This document shows positions 14,329 through 24,704 of a stretch of 64,000 nucleotides of DNA, in pieces; position 1 is the first letter of the stretch; each line of letters starts with the position of its first letter. Location of the stretch: NCBI GenBank assembly GCA_013816805.1, contig JACDDS010000012.1:62001-126000 (forward strand). The letters are read 5' to 3'. The notes beneath the pieces are model-generated. The model searched no databases and was not told where the DNA came from. It saw only the letters and a list, made by a program, of their open reading frames with translations. A program made the position numbers and the translations under genes. The DNA is from Chitinophagales bacterium (GTDB taxonomy: Bacteria > Bacteroidota > Bacteroidia > Chitinophagales > UBA10324).

Positions 14329-16506
14329 TCAGTTCTTCATTATTTTATATGAAAGGATGTTTTTGCCAGCGTGTAATTCAACAATGTACATATTGCTGGC
14401 GAAAGAGCTCAGATTAAAAGAAATAGTATGGTCACCTTCCGCCATTACGCCTTCATTCATCTGTAAAACGGATTGACCAAGAATGTTCTTAACCACGATA
14501 CTTACATTCTCCTCATTTTGTGTAGAAAAATACAATTGCATTTGCCCTGTTGTTGGGTTAGGATATACTTTTTCAATAGCTGCAGTGGGCAATCCGGCAT
14601 CAGTTGAAAAGTTTTCCCTGGACGAGCTTCCGCATTCATATATCTTTATCAGGTCACCTGCTCCCTGGTTAATTTTTACCCCTTTGAAAGTTATTAACCC
14701 TGTGCTGGTGCTATAAGTAATGGATTTTGTCTGGATAATTTTTCCATTTTTATAATTATCCATACAAATTTTCGTATTGTTTGCAACGTTCTTAAACTTT
14801 TGCAGGCGACGCAGGGTAATGTCCGTTGTAGATGTTTGTGGTAAATTAAAGGGAAACATCTGTCCGTTTTTCAACTTAAACTGATGAGAATAAATAATGC
14901 CCTGCCAGCTGGTTTTAGTTTCATGAATGGATGTATCAATCCAATCAAGTGTGCCATACTTTGTTCCTATTGAGTCACCATCATAATAAGGAGGGTTAGG
15001 ATTAATTGTATCTCCGGGATAACCATCGGCTGAACAATTGCTAAATGCAGGGTAAGAAAGATCAGTACGGTAACGTAAGAATGTAGCAGTAGATTGGTCG
15101 GGTATCATTTCAGACCCGCTGTTATGACTTCTTAAATCCCAGAAATAAAAACCGCCGCTTTGATTATTGTTCACAGTCTCATAGTATGGAATTTTTTCAT
15201 CCCAGCAGGTAACATCATCATTTTTCCCGGAAACCATGGTTACAATTGGAAGTGATGTTTTCTGCTGATCTTTCAACAGCACATTGAAATCCATCATATC
15301 ATACATCTTATAGTTCCCCGATCCTTTCAGCTTAGGATAGTCAGTAGGTAGATTATGTATGTAATCGCCTATGAAAATGTTTTGTTTTTTTCTTGTAGTA
15401 CCATTTAGATTCCATTTACAGGATGGATTATCATCATATAAAAAATGCCCGTTTACCTTAGCAACGGTTACGCTTACTGCAGCAACTAAATCGGGGAAAT
15501 TATAAGCGAATAACAACGCACCCGTGGTTCCTTCTGAAGAACCCTGTCCATACACTTTAGTAAAATCGATTTCAGTAGGAAAAGTCGCCACAAGCCAGTC
15601 GTAAGTCCACTTTATCCTTGACAAAGCATAAAGATGGTCAGTTCCTGTGGTAGGCCACGGAGTACTGGGACCCGCCGTATAAACATCAAAATTTTCATTA
15701 TAACCGATCCACTTAGTGTTTTCTCCATTGGTTGCATCCCAGTTAAAGTTAGGAATGTCATCTTCTAACGAAAGCTTCCACATTCCATCTATCACTTCAT
15801 CATTGCAATTTGTATAGGCATTTCCTCCTCCTCCGTAATAAAAAAAAGTAATACCATTGGGATTAGCCGCTTTTTTATCCTTTACAATTCCATAGTTAAA
15901 ATCAAGGCAGCCTTCATTAGTCATTGTGGGTGTATAGGTGGTAGTCACATTACCCCCAAAAACAACGTAAGCATCATATAACAAGCTCGGCTCATTAATG
16001 AGAGGGGTTCCGGCTATTTGCAAAATACCTTTAATAGGTGCTATGGATTCAGCAACGCCGTTGGTAGTAGCATTAGCTCCGGGTGTTATGGTACGATCTT
16101 CATTACCGTTTGCATTATCAGAAGTAACCGCGTAATAATAGGTTTTATTTTGACCACAGGTAGCGACAAATAGTCCCTGAGTGGCATCCAGCTTTTGTGT
16201 CGGATTATTATTGATTACTAAATACCGGCTTGGAGCGCTCTGAATATTTTTAAAGCTGAGATCTAAATAATAATTAAAAGAGAAATCATACGGTGTACGG
16301 CCAAGATAAGTTGCATTATCAATGTTCGCATTAGTTATAGGTGACGTGGATCTATAAACATAGTAAAACCCCGTATACCCGGTAATTATTTTCCAGACGG
16401 CAAAGGTTTGACCGTTTCTATATGTAGTTACCAGGTTAGTAACTTTGGCAGCCTGTGCAGAAACAAGCACAAAAGCCAACACCGCAAGTAGGAATATTCT
16501 TTTCAT
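14329..16506 (-). CDS. secreted serine-hydrolase-like T9SS protein, copy 1
   Basis: 725 residues. Signal peptide (MKRIFLLAVLAFVLVSAQA), then an Fn3-like domain (VTNLVTTYRNGQTFAVWK) to about residue 140. An alpha/beta-hydrolase-like core follows. FFYYGGGG (Gly 225-228) resembles a GGGX oxyanion hole, Ser324 lies in QGSSEGTTGA (a G-x-S-x-G elbow), Asp430 in SGKNDDVTCW, and His461 in WDLRSHNSG. These are in the right order for a Ser-Asp-His triad. A type A Por sorting domain ends the protein (VYPNPTTGQ to IVELHAGKN). It is probably an extracellular esterase or peptidase; the substrate is unknown. It is the most downstream of three full-length tandem paralogs. Confidence 0.85.
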   Translation of the reverse strand: MKRIFLLAVLAFVLVSAQAAKVTNLVTTYRNGQTFAVWKIITGYTGFYYVYRSTSPITNANIDNATYLGRTPYDFSFNYYLDLSFKNIQSAPSRYLVINNNPTQKLDATQGLFVATCGQNKTYYYAVTSDNANGNEDRTITPGANATTNGVAESIAPIKGILQIAGTPLINEPSLLYDAYVVFGGNVTTTYTPTMTNEGCLDFNYGIVKDKKAANPNGITFFYYGGGGNAYTNCNDEVIDGMWKLSLEDDIPNFNWDATNGENTKWIGYNENFDVYTAGPSTPWPTTGTDHLYALSRIKWTYDWLVATFPTEIDFTKVYGQGSSEGTTGALLFAYNFPDLVAAVSVTVAKVNGHFLYDDNPSCKWNLNGTTRKKQNIFIGDYIHNLPTDYPKLKGSGNYKMYDMMDFNVLLKDQQKTSLPIVTMVSGKNDDVTCWDEKIPYYETVNNNQSGGFYFWDLRSHNSGSEMIPDQSTATFLRYRTDLSYPAFSNCSADGYPGDTINPNPPYYDGDSIGTKYGTLDWIDTSIHETKTSWQGIIYSHQFKLKNGQMFPFNLPQTSTTDITLRRLQKFKNVANNTKICMDNYKNGKIIQTKSITYSTSTGLITFKGVKINQGAGDLIKIYECGSSSRENFSTDAGLPTAAIEKVYPNPTTGQMQLYFSTQNEENVSIVVKNILGQSVLQMNEGVMAEGDHTISFNLSSFASNMYIVELHAGKNILSYKIMKN

Positions 16507-16529
16507 GAGTATTTTTAAATGGAAATTTT

Positions 16530-16569
16530 AGTTGAAAGCAATGATTTGTAGTTAAAAGCAATAATTTGT
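16530..16569 (-). repeat. 20-bp imperfect tandem repeat upstream of paralog 1
   Basis: Two adjacent 20-base units at 16530-16549 and 16550-16569 differ at two positions. They lie 24-63 bases upstream of the ATG at 16506, where a promoter or operator would be expected. Confidence 0.7.
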
Positions 16570-16622
16570 GATAACTCTATCTGATAGGTATTAGTTTCAT
16601 ATTCAGGAAATAAAAAAATGCA

Positions 16623-18797
16623 TTAGTTCCGGAATAATTTGTAAGGAATCACCTCATTTCCGGCATGTAATTCCGCTACGTAAATGCCGCTCATAAAGTT
16701 ACCTATATCGAAAGAAATGGCATGATCTCCGCTTTCCTTAATCCCTTCATCGACAATAAGCAGTTTGTTTCCTAATACATCCTTTACAATTAAAATAACG
16801 TGCATATCACTTTTCAGTGAAAAACTAATTTGAGCTGATCCAAAGGTTGGATTTGGATAAATATTTTCTATAGCTGCTTTTTGTGTTTCACTATGTATTT
16901 GTGTATAGTCCTTAAATGGGGAAATGCATTCGTAGACTTTGATTTGGCTGCCCGTCCCATTAAAAATATCAATCTGATTAAATGTAATTATAGGATCAGA
17001 AGTGGAGTAATTAATTGATTGGGTTTGGATCAATTTACCATCGTGATAGTTATCAAGACATAGTATAGTGTTATCCGGTATATTAATGAATTGCTGTAAA
17101 CGGCGCAGCGTTATATCAGTCCTCACGCTCGGCGGAAGATTATAAGGATACAATTGACCATTATTCAGTTCAATCTGGTGTGAATATACAGTGGCCTGCC
17201 AGCTACCAGCAGTTTCATGAATAGAGGTATCAATCCAGTCTAACGTACCGTACCTGGTGCCAACTGTATCACCGTCAAAATAGGGAGGTTGCGGATTAAC
17301 GGTATCACCAGGATAGCTGTCCCCTGAACAATTCTGAAATGCAGGATAAGAGAGGTCAGTACGGTAACGGAGAAAGTTGCCCAGGTTACGGTCTTGAATT
17401 TCTTTAGTGCCGCTCTTGTGTTCCCGCTGATCCCAATAATAGAATCCGCCGTTTCTGCTTGCATTCAGGGAATTGTAAAATCCAATTTTTTCTTCCCAGC
17501 ACGTCACATAATCACTCTGGCCGGAAGTAAGAAATATCAAAGGAAGCGAATTGTACTTATTATCTTTTAATAACGTACTAAAATTACCGAAATCATAAGT
17601 TCTGTAATAATCAGTGCTGTTGTATTTTGGAACATCACTTGGCAGGTTATGAATGTAATCTCCGATAAAAATATTTTCCTTCGTACGTGCTCCACCATCT
17701 TCTGACCATTTACAGTCGGGATTATCGTCTGTAAGGTAATCCAGGTTTACTTTGGCGTTGGTGACATCTATGGCAGCTACAACATGAGGGTACAGAAGAC
17801 CAAACAGCAAGGCGCCGGTAGTGCCTTCTGATGAGCCCTGAGTATAAATTTTATGCAGGTCAATATCAATAGGAAAGGTTCTCAGGAGCCAATCGTACGT
17901 CCATTTAATGCGTGTAATAGAATAAGCATGGTTTATTCCGGTTGTGGGCCATGCGGAACTATCATTTGTGGAATAAACATCAAAGTTTTCGTTATAACCA
18001 ATCCATTTGGTATTTTCTCCGCTTATTGAATCCCAGTTAAAATTTGGAATATCGTCCTCCATAGAAATTTTCCACATACCCGGCTGATTAACAGAATTGC
18101 AGCTTCCATAGGCATTACCACCGCCTCCATAAAAAAAGAAAGTAGCCGCATTAGGACTGCCCGGATCAATATCCTTAACAATACCAAAGTTATAAACCAG
18201 ACATCCTTCATTGGTTAAAGCAGGAGTAAGGTCTGTTTTTACATTACCCCCGAATACTGCATAAGCATTATACAATAAGTTTCGGTTATCCCTTAAAGGA
18301 ATATCTGCTATCTGAAGGTATGCCTGTACAAAGTCTACCGATTCCGCTATTGCAGTCGTTAATGCATTAGCCCCCGGTACTATGTTTCTGTTTTCAACAT
18401 TTAATGAATCGGTAGTTATTGCATAATAATATATCTTCCCATTTGCAGCGCAGGTAATCACAAATAGTCCCTGAGACGCGGTGAGTTGCTCTGTGGGGTT
18501 ATTATTTATAACCAGGTACGGGGTTGGCTGGCCCGAGCCTTGAAGGCCAAGATTTAAAAAATAATTAAGTGAAAAATTTCCGGGTACCCGTCCCATATAT
18601 TTTGCACTATCGATATTTAAAGCGGTTATCGGACGATTATAGCGGTAAGCATAATAAAAACCCTTATAATCAGGAATCACCGTCCATGTTATAAACGTCT
18701 GTCCATCATGATAACTGCCGGAAATGTCTGTTACAGTAGAAGCCTTTGTTTTTACTGTAAGCAATATTACTAGCAGAATAAAAAAACTAATTTTCAT
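16623..18797 (-). CDS. secreted serine-hydrolase-like T9SS protein, copy 2
   Basis: 724 residues, alignable by eye along its whole length with the neighbours on both sides. It has a signal peptide (MKISFFILLVILLTVKTKAS), Fn3-like start, FFFYGGGG oxyanion-type motif, nucleophile Ser323 in QGSSEGTTGA, Asp in SGQSDYVTCW and His in WDQREHKSG. All triad positions of copy 1 are kept. The sorting domain runs from IYPNPTFGS to YVAELHAGN. Differences are spread evenly rather than clustered, as expected for an old duplication under selection. About 115 bases separate it from copy 1 and 86 from copy 3; no terminator is seen in either gap, so the three may be co-transcribed from copy 3 onward. Confidence 0.85.
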   Translation of the reverse strand: MKISFFILLVILLTVKTKASTVTDISGSYHDGQTFITWTVIPDYKGFYYAYRYNRPITALNIDSAKYMGRVPGNFSLNYFLNLGLQGSGQPTPYLVINNNPTEQLTASQGLFVITCAANGKIYYYAITTDSLNVENRNIVPGANALTTAIAESVDFVQAYLQIADIPLRDNRNLLYNAYAVFGGNVKTDLTPALTNEGCLVYNFGIVKDIDPGSPNAATFFFYGGGGNAYGSCNSVNQPGMWKISMEDDIPNFNWDSISGENTKWIGYNENFDVYSTNDSSAWPTTGINHAYSITRIKWTYDWLLRTFPIDIDLHKIYTQGSSEGTTGALLFGLLYPHVVAAIDVTNAKVNLDYLTDDNPDCKWSEDGGARTKENIFIGDYIHNLPSDVPKYNSTDYYRTYDFGNFSTLLKDNKYNSLPLIFLTSGQSDYVTCWEEKIGFYNSLNASRNGGFYYWDQREHKSGTKEIQDRNLGNFLRYRTDLSYPAFQNCSGDSYPGDTVNPQPPYFDGDTVGTRYGTLDWIDTSIHETAGSWQATVYSHQIELNNGQLYPYNLPPSVRTDITLRRLQQFINIPDNTILCLDNYHDGKLIQTQSINYSTSDPIITFNQIDIFNGTGSQIKVYECISPFKDYTQIHSETQKAAIENIYPNPTFGSAQISFSLKSDMHVILIVKDVLGNKLLIVDEGIKESGDHAISFDIGNFMSGIYVAELHAGNEVIPYKLFRN

Positions 18798-18883
18798 TTC
18801 AACTAAAAGATTCTACCTGAAAAAAAATAACCATTTCCATAACTATAAAAAAAATTAAAAGCAATTGGTATTAACCTATAGGT

Positions 18884-21061
18884 CTAATTTTTTAAGACCT
18901 TAACCAATGAAACCCGATCCCCAGCCCGAAGTTCAACAATATAGATTCCTGAATTAAAGGATGAGACATCAAAATGAATGCTGTGTTCGCCTTCCAAAAG
19001 CTCGCCCTGATTTGTATAAGATAGCTGCCTTCCTGCCATATCCCTAATCCTTAACACTACTTGTTTGCTCTCGGGAAGAAAAAAATTGATAGTTGATAAC
19101 CCACTGGTTGGATTAGGATAAATGATATCTGCCGCAGGATTGGTTATCTCATTGATACCGGTTAATTCCGAAGACCTTCCTGAAGCGCAGATATAAACTT
19201 TCACCAGGTTCGATTCCTGACTCACCTTTACTTTTTTGAAAGTTATTAACCCACTGCTACTATGATAGATTATAGATTGCGACTGAATTAATACTCCGTT
19301 TTGATAATTGTCCATACAGATTTTAGCCTTATCGGGTATATTTATGAACTGCTGCAAGCGCCGGAGAGTAATGTCAGTTTCTATTGTGTTTGGCAGCTGG
19401 ACAGGCAATAAAGATCCATCCAGCAAAACTATTTGATGGGCGTATAAAATAGCTTGCCAGCTAACCGGTGTTTCATGAATTGATGAATCAACCCAATCCA
19501 GTGTTCCGAATTTAGTGCCTACTGTATCGCCGTCATAATAAGGAGGTGCAGGATTGATGGTGTCACCAGAGTAGCTGTCTGCAGAACAATACTGGAAAGC
19601 CGGATAAGAAAGATTGGTGTGATATCTGGTAAGATCGCTGAGAGAACGATCCTGAATTTCATGAGTACCACCCTTATGAATTCTTAAATCCCAATAATAA
19701 AATCCACCGCTCTTGTAAATGTTTACACTATTGTAGAAAGGAATTTTTTCATCCCAGCACGTTACATTGTCGAGCTTTCCTGAAGTCATAAAATAAATAG
19801 GTAGTGAAATATTTTTGTCATCAGCAAGAAGCACATTAAAATCTGCCATATCATACATATGATAATATCCATCCCCATTAATTTTTGGCATATCGGTTGG
19901 CAGATTAGCAATATAATCTCCAATAAAAATGTTTTGCTTAATCCGGGTAGCTCCATCAACATTCCATTTACAGGTAGGGTTATCATCATGCAGGTAATTG
20001 ATGTCCACCTTCGCATTAGTAACATCCACTGCTGCCACTTTATCGGGAAACAAGTAACCAAAAAGCATTGCGCCGGTGCAGCCTGAAGAACTGCCCTGTG
20101 TATAGATGCTATGCGGATCAATATCACTGGGAAAAGTGCGAAGCAACCAGTCGTAAGTCCACTTGACACGTTGTATTGTATATGTTTTATCGACTCCGGT
20201 TGTAGGCCATGGAGTATCATTATTAGCATTATAAACATCAAAATTTTCGTGATAACCGATCCACTTGGTATTTTCTCCATAGATCGGGTCCCAGCTGAAA
20301 TTCGGTATATCATCTTCCATAGATATCTTCCAATTTCCCGGCAGATCTACGGAATTACAATTTGCATAAGCATTGCCGCCACCCCCATAAAATAAAAATG
20401 TGGCTCCGTTAGGGCCGGAAGGATCAGCATCTTTAACAATGCCGAAATTGAATGATAGGCATCCTTCATTAGTCATTTCAGGAGTAAATGGTGTCTGAAT
20501 ATTCCCCCCAAATACTACATAAGCATTATAAAATAGGTCAGGGTTGTCCAGAAGCGGAAGACCTGATACCTGTAAGATTGCTTTTACAGGTGCAACCTGT
20601 TCCGCCACACCATTGATTAGCGAATTAGCACCGGATTTTATATGCCGGTTTTCCATCCCGCCCGAGTCAGCAGTTACTGCATAGTAACGGGTTTTATTAT
20701 CGCTGCAGGTAGTAACAAAAACCCCTTGTTCCGGGGTTAAGGTCTGAATAGGATTATCATTGATAACAAAATAGAAAGTATTTGCACCGCCTTCTCCATT
20801 TACGCCAATATTTAAGAAATAATTAAAAGATGAGTTATTGGGAATACGTCCTATATATTTTGAACTGTCAAGATTAGATGAGGTGATAGCTCTACTGTAA
20901 CGGTAGATGTAGTAAAAACCGGAATCATAAGATGATATGTTATTCCAAACTAAAAAAGTCTGACCATTTCTGTAATTAGCAACCAGGTTAGTAACTACTT
21001 GCGCCTTCAGATAGCAAACGGAAAAAAGAATGGTAATTAACAGTAATAAAAATTTTCTCAT
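18884..21061 (-). CDS. secreted serine-hydrolase-like T9SS protein, copy 3
   Basis: 725 residues and first in the transcription order of the triplet. Signal peptide MRKFLLLLITILFSVCYLKA, cut before QVV. Fn3-like start, FLFYGGGG, nucleophile Ser326 in QGSSSGCTGA (Glu of the other copies is Ser here and Thr is Cys), Asp in SGKLDNVTCW and His in WDLRIHKGG. The changed residues beside the nucleophile hint at a different substrate, which is inference. The sorting domain runs from IYPNPTSGL to YIVELRAGD. No regulator or transporter lies beside the triplet to reveal its role. Confidence 0.85.
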   Translation of the reverse strand: MRKFLLLLITILFSVCYLKAQVVTNLVANYRNGQTFLVWNNISSYDSGFYYIYRYSRAITSSNLDSSKYIGRIPNNSSFNYFLNIGVNGEGGANTFYFVINDNPIQTLTPEQGVFVTTCSDNKTRYYAVTADSGGMENRHIKSGANSLINGVAEQVAPVKAILQVSGLPLLDNPDLFYNAYVVFGGNIQTPFTPEMTNEGCLSFNFGIVKDADPSGPNGATFLFYGGGGNAYANCNSVDLPGNWKISMEDDIPNFSWDPIYGENTKWIGYHENFDVYNANNDTPWPTTGVDKTYTIQRVKWTYDWLLRTFPSDIDPHSIYTQGSSSGCTGAMLFGYLFPDKVAAVDVTNAKVDINYLHDDNPTCKWNVDGATRIKQNIFIGDYIANLPTDMPKINGDGYYHMYDMADFNVLLADDKNISLPIYFMTSGKLDNVTCWDEKIPFYNSVNIYKSGGFYYWDLRIHKGGTHEIQDRSLSDLTRYHTNLSYPAFQYCSADSYSGDTINPAPPYYDGDTVGTKFGTLDWVDSSIHETPVSWQAILYAHQIVLLDGSLLPVQLPNTIETDITLRRLQQFINIPDKAKICMDNYQNGVLIQSQSIIYHSSSGLITFKKVKVSQESNLVKVYICASGRSSELTGINEITNPAADIIYPNPTSGLSTINFFLPESKQVVLRIRDMAGRQLSYTNQGELLEGEHSIHFDVSSFNSGIYIVELRAGDRVSLVKVLKN

Positions 21062-21236: not shown

Positions 21237-21836
21237 TTAGTTCCAATCCTTTTGATCTTCTTTATTCAGTTCATTTAGTAAAGAAGGCGTAATATTTATC
21301 TTAACAAGCGAATAAAGAATATCATAAACTTCCTTTACGTTTGGCAACATCGCCAGGCCGGGTAAGGCCTCCTGCACAAAATAAAAACCCCCAAGCAACC
21401 ATGGATAAAGAGGATTGGTATTCCCCAATATGATAAACCCGGAGCCATCCTTTTCTTCTGTAAGATCAAGCCGTTCAATATTTTTAAGCGGCAGGGTTTT
21501 CAGGTTTAATTTTTTTCTTTCATTTTTCAACAGCACTCTTTTATTAGTAATGCAGTAAAAAGTCCGTGCCCTTTTTCGGGCACTAAGAAAAAATCTGAGG
21601 ATGCACATGTAAACACTGGCTAATGCAAGCATAACCCCGATTATTTTTAAGGTAAAAGGAGATTCGTAATAGAGCAGTGTATAATTGAGAATGAGTGAAA
21701 AACCCACCAGTATAATGCTCATGGGTATCAGAAGCATATCTGCATCGCGGAGTTGTACACCACGCTTGGGCTGCCCGGTCCATATAATTTTCTCATCTTC
21801 CTTCAAATAGGGAATAAATAAGGGCTCTAAAAGCAT
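21237..21836 (-). CDS. membrane protein with bacterial PH domain
   Basis: 199 residues. The N-terminus EDEKIIWTGQPKRG precedes two hydrophobic segments at about 33-55 and 62-80. A soluble part with FYCITNKRVLLKNERK and LPLKNIERLDL follows. This is the arrangement of bPH_2 (YdbS/YdbT-like) proteins, where a pleckstrin-like domain sits on the cytoplasmic face. The role of the family is poorly known. It stands alone between the hydrolase triplet and ppk1, which is divergent. The start is the first in-frame ATG. Confidence 0.7.
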   Translation of the reverse strand: MLLEPLFIPYLKEDEKIIWTGQPKRGVQLRDADMLLIPMSIILVGFSLILNYTLLYYESPFTLKIIGVMLALASVYMCILRFFLSARKRARTFYCITNKRVLLKNERKKLNLKTLPLKNIERLDLTEEKDGSGFIILGNTNPLYPWLLGGFYFVQEALPGLAMLPNVKEVYDILYSLVKINITPSLLNELNKEDQKDWN

Positions 21837-24158: not shown

Positions 24159-24704
24159 TTATTCCACAATAAATTTTCCATTCATTTTTTGCCAATGTCC
24201 GGGGTAAGTACAGACAAACTGATAGTTACCGAAAGGTGGAGCGGCGAAAACCAAATCTGCAGATTGTCCTGGATTTAACAGAGGAGAGTGATATAAAACA
24301 TTGGATCGGTCATCAGGAACAAATTCTTTTGCAGGACCAGCAGCATTACCGGCGGTTGCCACTTGTTCCATTGTCCCGGTTTTTACAATAAAAAAATTAT
24401 GCTTCAGAGCAGAATCTTTTGCTGTATTGCTGAAATGGATCTTAATAGTAGAACCTGATTTTACGTGAATATCTGCCATTGAATAAGACATTACATCCAT
24501 AGAATTTCCAATGGCATTTAATGTAAATTCCATTACTGGCGCACTGGCATCAATTTTATCCGGGTCGTATACTAATGGCTGCGAATGATAGGAAGAAGTA
24601 TCCTGTGCATCAGAAGAAGTTTGTTGCTGATTGCTGTTACAAGCAGTAAAGTATAACAATGCAATGTAAGTGGAAAATACCGGAAAGGCTGATTTAATGG
24701 TCAT
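24159..24704 (-). CDS. azurin/plastocyanin-like cupredoxin lipoprotein
   Basis: 181 residues. The N-terminus ends in the lipobox LYFTAC, followed by a polar Ser/Gln linker, so it is probably anchored to the outer membrane or periplasmic face. The cupredoxin domain spans about 55-181. Copper ligands are visible in the azurin order: His in LKHNFF, then Cys, His and Met in VCTYPGHWQKM. It should be a small blue-copper electron carrier. Length beyond azurin is due to the linker. It is convergent with ppk1 and lies alone. Confidence 0.88.
   Translation of the reverse strand: MTIKSAFPVFSTYIALLYFTACNSNQQQTSSDAQDTSSYHSQPLVYDPDKIDASAPVMEFTLNAIGNSMDVMSYSMADIHVKSGSTIKIHFSNTAKDSALKHNFFIVKTGTMEQVATAGNAAGPAKEFVPDDRSNVLYHSPLLNPGQSADLVFAAPPFGNYQFVCTYPGHWQKMNGKFIVE

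Follow-up and report, generated by a model that had tools for sequence, protein, structure and literature searches.

A tandem triplet of putatively exported alpha/beta-hydrolase-like proteins belongs to a lineage-expanded family in Chitinophagales

Three similar genes lie in a row in a 64,000-nucleotide stretch of DNA from an uncultured Chitinophagales bacterium (assembly GCA_013816805.1, contig JACDDS010000012.1, positions 62,001 to 126,000; the window). In their products, of about 725 residues each, the only Pfam or NCBIfam match above cut-off is the tail of the type IX secretion system (T9SS). What kind of protein does this triplet encode, and how did it arise? The answer we favor, with a probability of about 0.75, is that the three proteins are exported Ser-Asp-His alpha/beta hydrolases, most likely esterases that act on an insoluble or polymeric substrate outside the cell.

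Three tandem copies and an invariant triad

As an earlier note on this DNA had described, the triplet consists of three full-length, intact open reading frames (ORFs) on the same strand (window coordinates):

14329..16506 (-), copy 1: 725-aa putatively secreted alpha/beta-hydrolase-like protein; nucleophile GSSEGTTG
16057..16443 (-), copy 1 N-terminal domain: residues 22-150; Fn3-like by eye (GQTF..W...YxxYR); alignment A15
15007..16056 (-), copy 1 putative hydrolase core: residues 151-500; GGGG 225-228, Ser324, Asp430, His461
14617..15006 (-), copy 1 C-terminal domain: residues 501-630; conserved, D[IVL]TxRRxQxF
14332..14568 (-), copy 1 T9SS type A sorting domain: residues 647-725
16623..18797 (-), copy 2: 724 aa; nucleophile GSSEGTTG
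18884..21061 (-), copy 3: 725 aa; nucleophile GSSSGCTG; Cys position as in most single-copy orthologs

The genes are separated by 116 and 86 bp, and copy 1 shares 56% identity with copy 2 and likewise with copy 3. Compared pairwise, the three are most alike in the hydrolase part (60-67% identity), then in the domain after it (57-61%) and the N-terminal domain (52-55%); identity is lower in the tail (38-43%), the signal (24-33%) and the linker (6-25%). Ser324, Asp430, His461 and the GGGG stretch at 225-228 (copy 1 numbering) are invariant across the three copies. The pairwise dN values of 0.36-0.38, against dS values near saturation (2.4-2.9), indicate that all three copies have been kept as proteins.

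The family search matched 93 ORFs, and 84 near-full-length members from 17 genomes, including the triplet and a divergent member (L114), were kept for the triad count after nine partial ones had been dropped. All 84 have the Ser, Asp and His unchanged and in the same order. The core alignment A9 (83 rows) contains only nine invariant columns, S, D, W, R, H, P, G, G and G, among which S, D and H each occur once; L114 was omitted from it, as well as from A14 (41 members) and A15 (40 members), which take roughly every second member. Core identity to copy 1 falls to about 21% with the triad still complete. Such conservation argues against the alternative that these are inactive, hydrolase-like proteins for adhesion or binding. 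Ig_7 matches in 2 and MopE-type metal-binding motifs in 4 of 32 members could speak for it, but we consider it very improbable.

The motifs around the triad are less strict. Both the GGGG oxyanion-type motif and the GxSxG nucleophile motif noted earlier are present in all three copies, but neither holds across the family. The four GGGG columns have Gly in 54, 50, 46 and 31 of the 84 members, the stretch having drifted in the expanded family to read GGGG, HGGG or no glycine run at all; the second Gly of GxSxG is found in 60 of 84, with Asn in 18. Nine distant copies from the genome family f17 show the textbook form, with HGG[GQ]G at the oxyanion loop (9/9) and GHSMG or GYSMG at the nucleophile. 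Since all nine carry HGG[GQ]G there, the GGGG of the triplet can be placed at the oxyanion-loop position.

The predicted export of the triplet proteins is well supported. The sorting-domain model PF18962 (cut-off 27 bits) was passed by all three copies (39.7, 30.7 and 44.4 bits), and TIGR04183 (cut-off 23) by copy 1 (37.4) and copy 3 (43.3), with copy 2 at 20.7 below the cut-off. The T9SS sortase PorU was found above cut-off in all 16 genomes of the source's genome family, so that a C-terminal sorting domain and a genomic sortase, the two marks of T9SS type A cargo, are both present. The signal peptide and the Fn3-like start were recognised by eye; the sorting domain of the earlier description stands, and Fn3 obtained no Pfam match in the triplet. 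Two other members, L029 and L030, have open frames (676 and 645 aa) that stop directly after the conserved part and bear no T9SS tail; the L030 match contains one TGA.

Likeness to known esterases

Family scans with Pfam and NCBIfam covered 32 members (A2), two truncated ones of the 34 known at that stage being excluded. The enzyme model with the most matches was NF050058, for polyhydroxyalkanoate (PHA) depolymerase, which weakly matched 26 of 32 members (best E 1.2e-9) as well as all nine distant relatives. The Pfam Esterase model PF00756 matched 14 of 32 (best 7.4e-5), and its gathering score of 22 bits was passed by two of the nine distant relatives (30.6 and 25.6 bits); none of the three triplet copies matched it at E 1. 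TIGR01840 (cut-off 107.85 bits) reached at best 22.2 bits among the nine distant relatives and was not reported for the triplet at E 1. The PETase-like PF12740 (gathering score 28 bits) matched one of 32 members, at E 0.1, and did not match the triplet.

Searches against PDB sequences point in the same direction. Copy 1 alone gave only four phmmer matches, none a plausible relative (best E 0.048), whereas the core profile matched S-formylglutathione hydrolase (3fcx, 1.5e-8), LC-Est1C (7.4e-8) and acetylxylan esterase A (5.3e-7), with feruloyl esterases also among the matches. The matches of the family profiles to PDB esterases centre on the oxyanion loop and the nucleophile. In hhalign, the nine distant relatives were aligned with ten Pfam-recognised esterases (A10, 10 of 13 esterase frames from L058-L071, three of 843-1014 aa excluded), and Ser was paired with Ser and Asp with Asp (97.4%).

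Secreted alpha/beta-hydrolase peptidases of the S9/S33 type would have the same fold and triad. Peptidase_S9 matched one of 32 members (1.9e-5) and, weakly, four of the nine distant relatives (best 0.0061). The esterase models match more members, and better, which makes a peptidase distinctly improbable. Since the esterase models match the largest number of members, the reaction is best read as that of an esterase.

AlphaFold predictions were run with seven sequences, at full length and for the core, in which model residues are copy 1 residues minus 149. Along the core model the elements come in the order strand, GGGG, helix, strand, helix, strand, Ser, helix, strand and, later, a further strand and Asp. 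GGGG (76-79) comes after strand 68-75, Ser175 lies between strand 164-174 and helix 177-187, and Asp281 comes after strand 272-276. In copy 1 numbering, both models place, at low confidence, a strand at 313-323 before a helix that starts at 324 or 326. A nucleophile predicted between strand and helix, together with the order Ser-Asp-His, is consistent with membership in the alpha/beta-hydrolase superfamily.

Fold searches with this low-confidence model point to the same superfamily. Judged by their titles, the 50 rows listed by Foldseek (best E 1.6e-4) and the 50 listed by VIA are esterases or other alpha/beta hydrolases. The best VIA Z was 11.2, for FrsA, followed by 11.1 for an acetylxylan esterase of B. 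intestinalis; according to VIA's own note the best Z is typically 7 to 8 for models that have no clear match, against 10-11 here. The entries 3mve and 3our, titled pyruvate decarboxylase, are FrsA, which has an alpha/beta-hydrolase fold. The VIA alignments cover 126-188 residues at 2.7-5.2 A and end at model residues 329-335, beyond His312. The suggestion of the earlier note that Ser324, Asp430 and His461 fit an alpha/beta hydrolase is supported by their invariance, the esterase profile matches and the fold searches with a low-confidence model.

Several observations weigh against the assignment. On the triplet, every Pfam and NCBIfam enzyme model stays below its cut-off, in agreement with the earlier remark that the proteins could not be matched to a named esterase or peptidase family. 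Model confidence is low, with a predicted local distance difference test (pLDDT) score of 40.6 at full length and 35.1 for the core (predicted template modelling score 0.41), and is low around Asp and His in the core. The query-normalised TM-scores of the listed Foldseek rows are 0.17-0.27, with no negative-control model alongside. In the hhalign comparison of the distant relatives, the catalytic His was not paired with that of the esterases, and the alignments of the wider family (99.1%) and of the triplet alone (82.0%) cover the nucleophile region and end before Asp. The neighbours of the source-genome copies looked at appear unrelated and give no clue to a substrate.

The two flanking domains are conserved and without a convincing named match. 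Seven of the 40 N-terminal domains in A15 weakly matched the Pfam RGI_lyase beta-sheet model (best 9.6e-4), while the C-terminal domain 501-630, with strands in the low-confidence model, has no convincing Pfam family, and neither domain matched PDB sequences at E 1. Among the 32 scanned members, Cu-binding_MopE matches reached 1.7e-36 and one member has a PKD match; extra domains seem to have been exchanged during the family expansion.

Distribution and duplication history

The source genome (3.57 Mb) holds 12 matches at 11 places, one member being split over two frames. Eight of the 16 genomes in its genome family are carriers, with 6-14 matches per genome (contig fragments included), and no family match was found in the genera g7 (six genomes), g3 and g6. 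In the order search (396 genomes), 17 genomes matched at 1e-12, namely the same eight carriers and nine genomes of f17. In each of the f17 genomes a single distant copy was found, the open frames measuring 696-766 aa.

A first search of the phylum, with the tail included, matched only the C-terminal part outside the source genome and was therefore redone without the tail. In the phylum search, 72 of 395 genomes matched at 1e-5, and outside the source genome no match spanned more than 195 of 588 model positions, nearly all being short and around the nucleophile. Since the order and phylum searches scored at most three candidates per genome, and the phylum sample included none of the nine f17 copies, sparse members elsewhere could be missed. 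No relative was found on plasmids (tblastn) or viral contigs, nor on genome contigs searched with copy 1 alone. With A4 as the query, the genome contigs gave four loci, and four contigs of this group, from metagenome bins, carry the name Chitinophagales bacterium.

Tandem arrays also occur elsewhere. A second triplet in the source genome (L010:2754-9276, G000:C15; nucleophile GxSHNGFG) forms its own clade with modest support (88), and L089 (G001:C3) and L095 (G008:C41) each bear four long members in a row (frames of 907-1035 aa), which correspond one to one between the two genomes. The eleventh source-genome member (G000:C1:125808-127501; L014, L124) consists of two overlapping same-strand frames of 471 and 163 aa, either a broken gene or an assembly error.

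In the tree, the three copies of the window form one source-genome clade with a support of 99 (Shimodaira-Hasegawa-like approximate likelihood ratio test, SH-aLRT), enclosed by orthologs, one each from G001, G003, G008 and G009. The triplet arose by tandem duplication in the source lineage; relatives have only one copy of the gene from which it came. Directly behind the nucleophile Ser, the orthologs have SGC (G003), NGC (G001, G008 and CAN_BIN04 L056) or NGT (G009); copy 3 has SGC, EGT stands in copies 1 and 2, and Glu325 is peculiar to these two within the clade. Given the ortholog readings and the source-genome clade, copy 3 most likely keeps the older nucleophile state, with copies 1 and 2 apparently the derived ones. 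To regard copy 3, with GSSSGCTG, as the one that diverged therefore appears to be the wrong way round, and we rejected that reading on the tree and the ortholog nucleophile sequences.

Possible substrates and known systems

We propose the following model for these putative esterases. The signal peptide would direct the proteins across the inner membrane and the T9SS across the outer membrane. Outside the cell, they would cleave ester bonds of an acylated polysaccharide or a polyester. Ser324, activated by Asp430 and His461, would attack the carbonyl, and the loop following the strand that ends close to residue 223, with GGGG in the triplet, would hold the oxyanion. The N- and C-terminal domains probably bind the substrate or shape the site. 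A polymer ester as the substrate is our best guess.

One candidate activity is that of CE1-like carbohydrate esterases (acetylxylan or feruloyl), which strip acyl groups from polysaccharides. Besides the PDB profile matches to such enzymes, acetylxylan and feruloyl esterases are frequent among the VIA rows (6ne9, Z 11.1; 8jh8, 10.8; 7b6b, 10.6). SusD is present in 7 of the 16 genomes of the source's genome family, that is, in 6 of the 8 with the new family against 1 of the 8 without. However, this pattern owes much to a single genus of six genomes, and the two carriers that score negative for SusD have incomplete genomes (86% and 74%). Beside the copies viewed, mostly by eye and with nine proteins searched, no polysaccharide locus was recognised. 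We regard a carbohydrate esterase as a tentative possibility. Beside the distant copy in L080 lies a 739-aa frame with a TonB-dependent receptor-like start, as judged by eye.

The breadth of the NF050058 matches raises the alternative of extracellular polyester (PHA-like) depolymerases. In G001, G003, G004 and G008, a 3-hydroxybutyryl-CoA dehydrogenase gene (hbd) lies next upstream of the single-copy triplet ortholog on the same strand:

L053:4948-5835, 3-hydroxybutyryl-CoA dehydrogenase
L055:4437-5324, 3-hydroxybutyryl-CoA dehydrogenase
L056:1626-2513, 3-hydroxybutyryl-CoA dehydrogenase
L015:3949-4836, 3-hydroxybutyryl-CoA dehydrogenase

At L053, L055 and L056, an aminopeptidase-like gene precedes hbd. 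The gaps to hbd are about 160-270 bp, so the shared gene order may mean nothing, and the dehydrogenase handles the other 3-hydroxybutyrate stereoisomer, which counts against this alternative. No hbd lies beside the triplet, that of the source genome being at C1:75095, away from the copies; the G009 ortholog has no hbd neighbour, and no hbd was found in G009 or G011, both incomplete. The NF050058 scores are far under the cut-off of 150 bits (11.9 for copy 1, unreported for copies 2 and 3, 39.7 for the best distant relative). A PHA depolymerase is therefore unlikely. Just outside the window, a separate 264-aa frame (G000:C12:130099-130662) weakly matches NF050058 with 55.8 bits.

Within the source's genome family, PHA depolymerases above cut-off are found in five of the six genomes of g7, where the new family is absent, and in no carrier (0 of 8). 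It could be imagined that the group relies on a family of its own with two undescribed domains, some 6-14 diverse surface esterases in each genome, for what canonical extracellular polyester or glycan esterases do in sister genera. We consider this quite unlikely: g7 is a single genus, and among matches below the cut-off of 150, that of carrier G004 (122 bits) nears it, as does that of non-carrier G002 (133 bits). The SusD, hbd-neighbour and PHA depolymerase leads are all confounded by kinship, and none concerns the window triplet directly.

The neighbours of the triplet itself encode a small membrane protein, polyphosphate kinase and a protein with weak similarity to BT2802. Upstream, window 21237-21836 encodes a small protein with a weak likeness, below cut-offs, to PuhB and the bacterial PH domain, and window 24159-24704 an azurin-like protein (62.8 bits; azurin cut-off 105.1).

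With esterase as the preferred reading, the kind of enzyme is a known one and the mechanism is not new; what is new is the family, which has expanded within one lineage. The family and its expansion look undescribed and the enzyme type ordinary: no Pfam or NCBIfam model for the family was found, and a literature search of limited coverage, weak evidence of novelty, found no paper on such a family. What it adds is a proposed function class for a secreted family in which databases name only the export tail, two conserved domains and a large lineage-restricted expansion of putative secreted hydrolases in uncultured bacteria. Screens for substrates could draw directly on the 84 near-full-length members, which vary naturally around a single triad.

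Esterases of the alpha/beta-hydrolase type that are exported by T9SS have been described in Bacteroidota, among them PET27 and PET30 (PMC8767016, PMC11509169). The triplet resembles PET27 and PET30 as predicted secreted Ser-Asp-His alpha/beta hydrolases of Bacteroidota with a PorC/TIGR04183 tail. Unlike the PETase-like candidates of 36-48 kDa in PMC8767016, the family proteins have about 725 residues and two further conserved domains, and the PETase Pfam model matches just the one member mentioned above. With PHA depolymerase NF050058 and the polyhydroxybutyrate depolymerase family esterase TIGR01840 (8daj), the family shares matches at the nucleophile and, in some members, at the oxyanion segment, and these are fold-search neighbours; it differs in bit scores far under both cut-offs and in its larger protein. 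The best profile and structure neighbours are acetylxylan and feruloyl esterases (6ne9, 5x6s) and S-formylglutathione hydrolase (3fcx); identity in the structure rows is 8% to 6ne9 and 16% to 5x6s.

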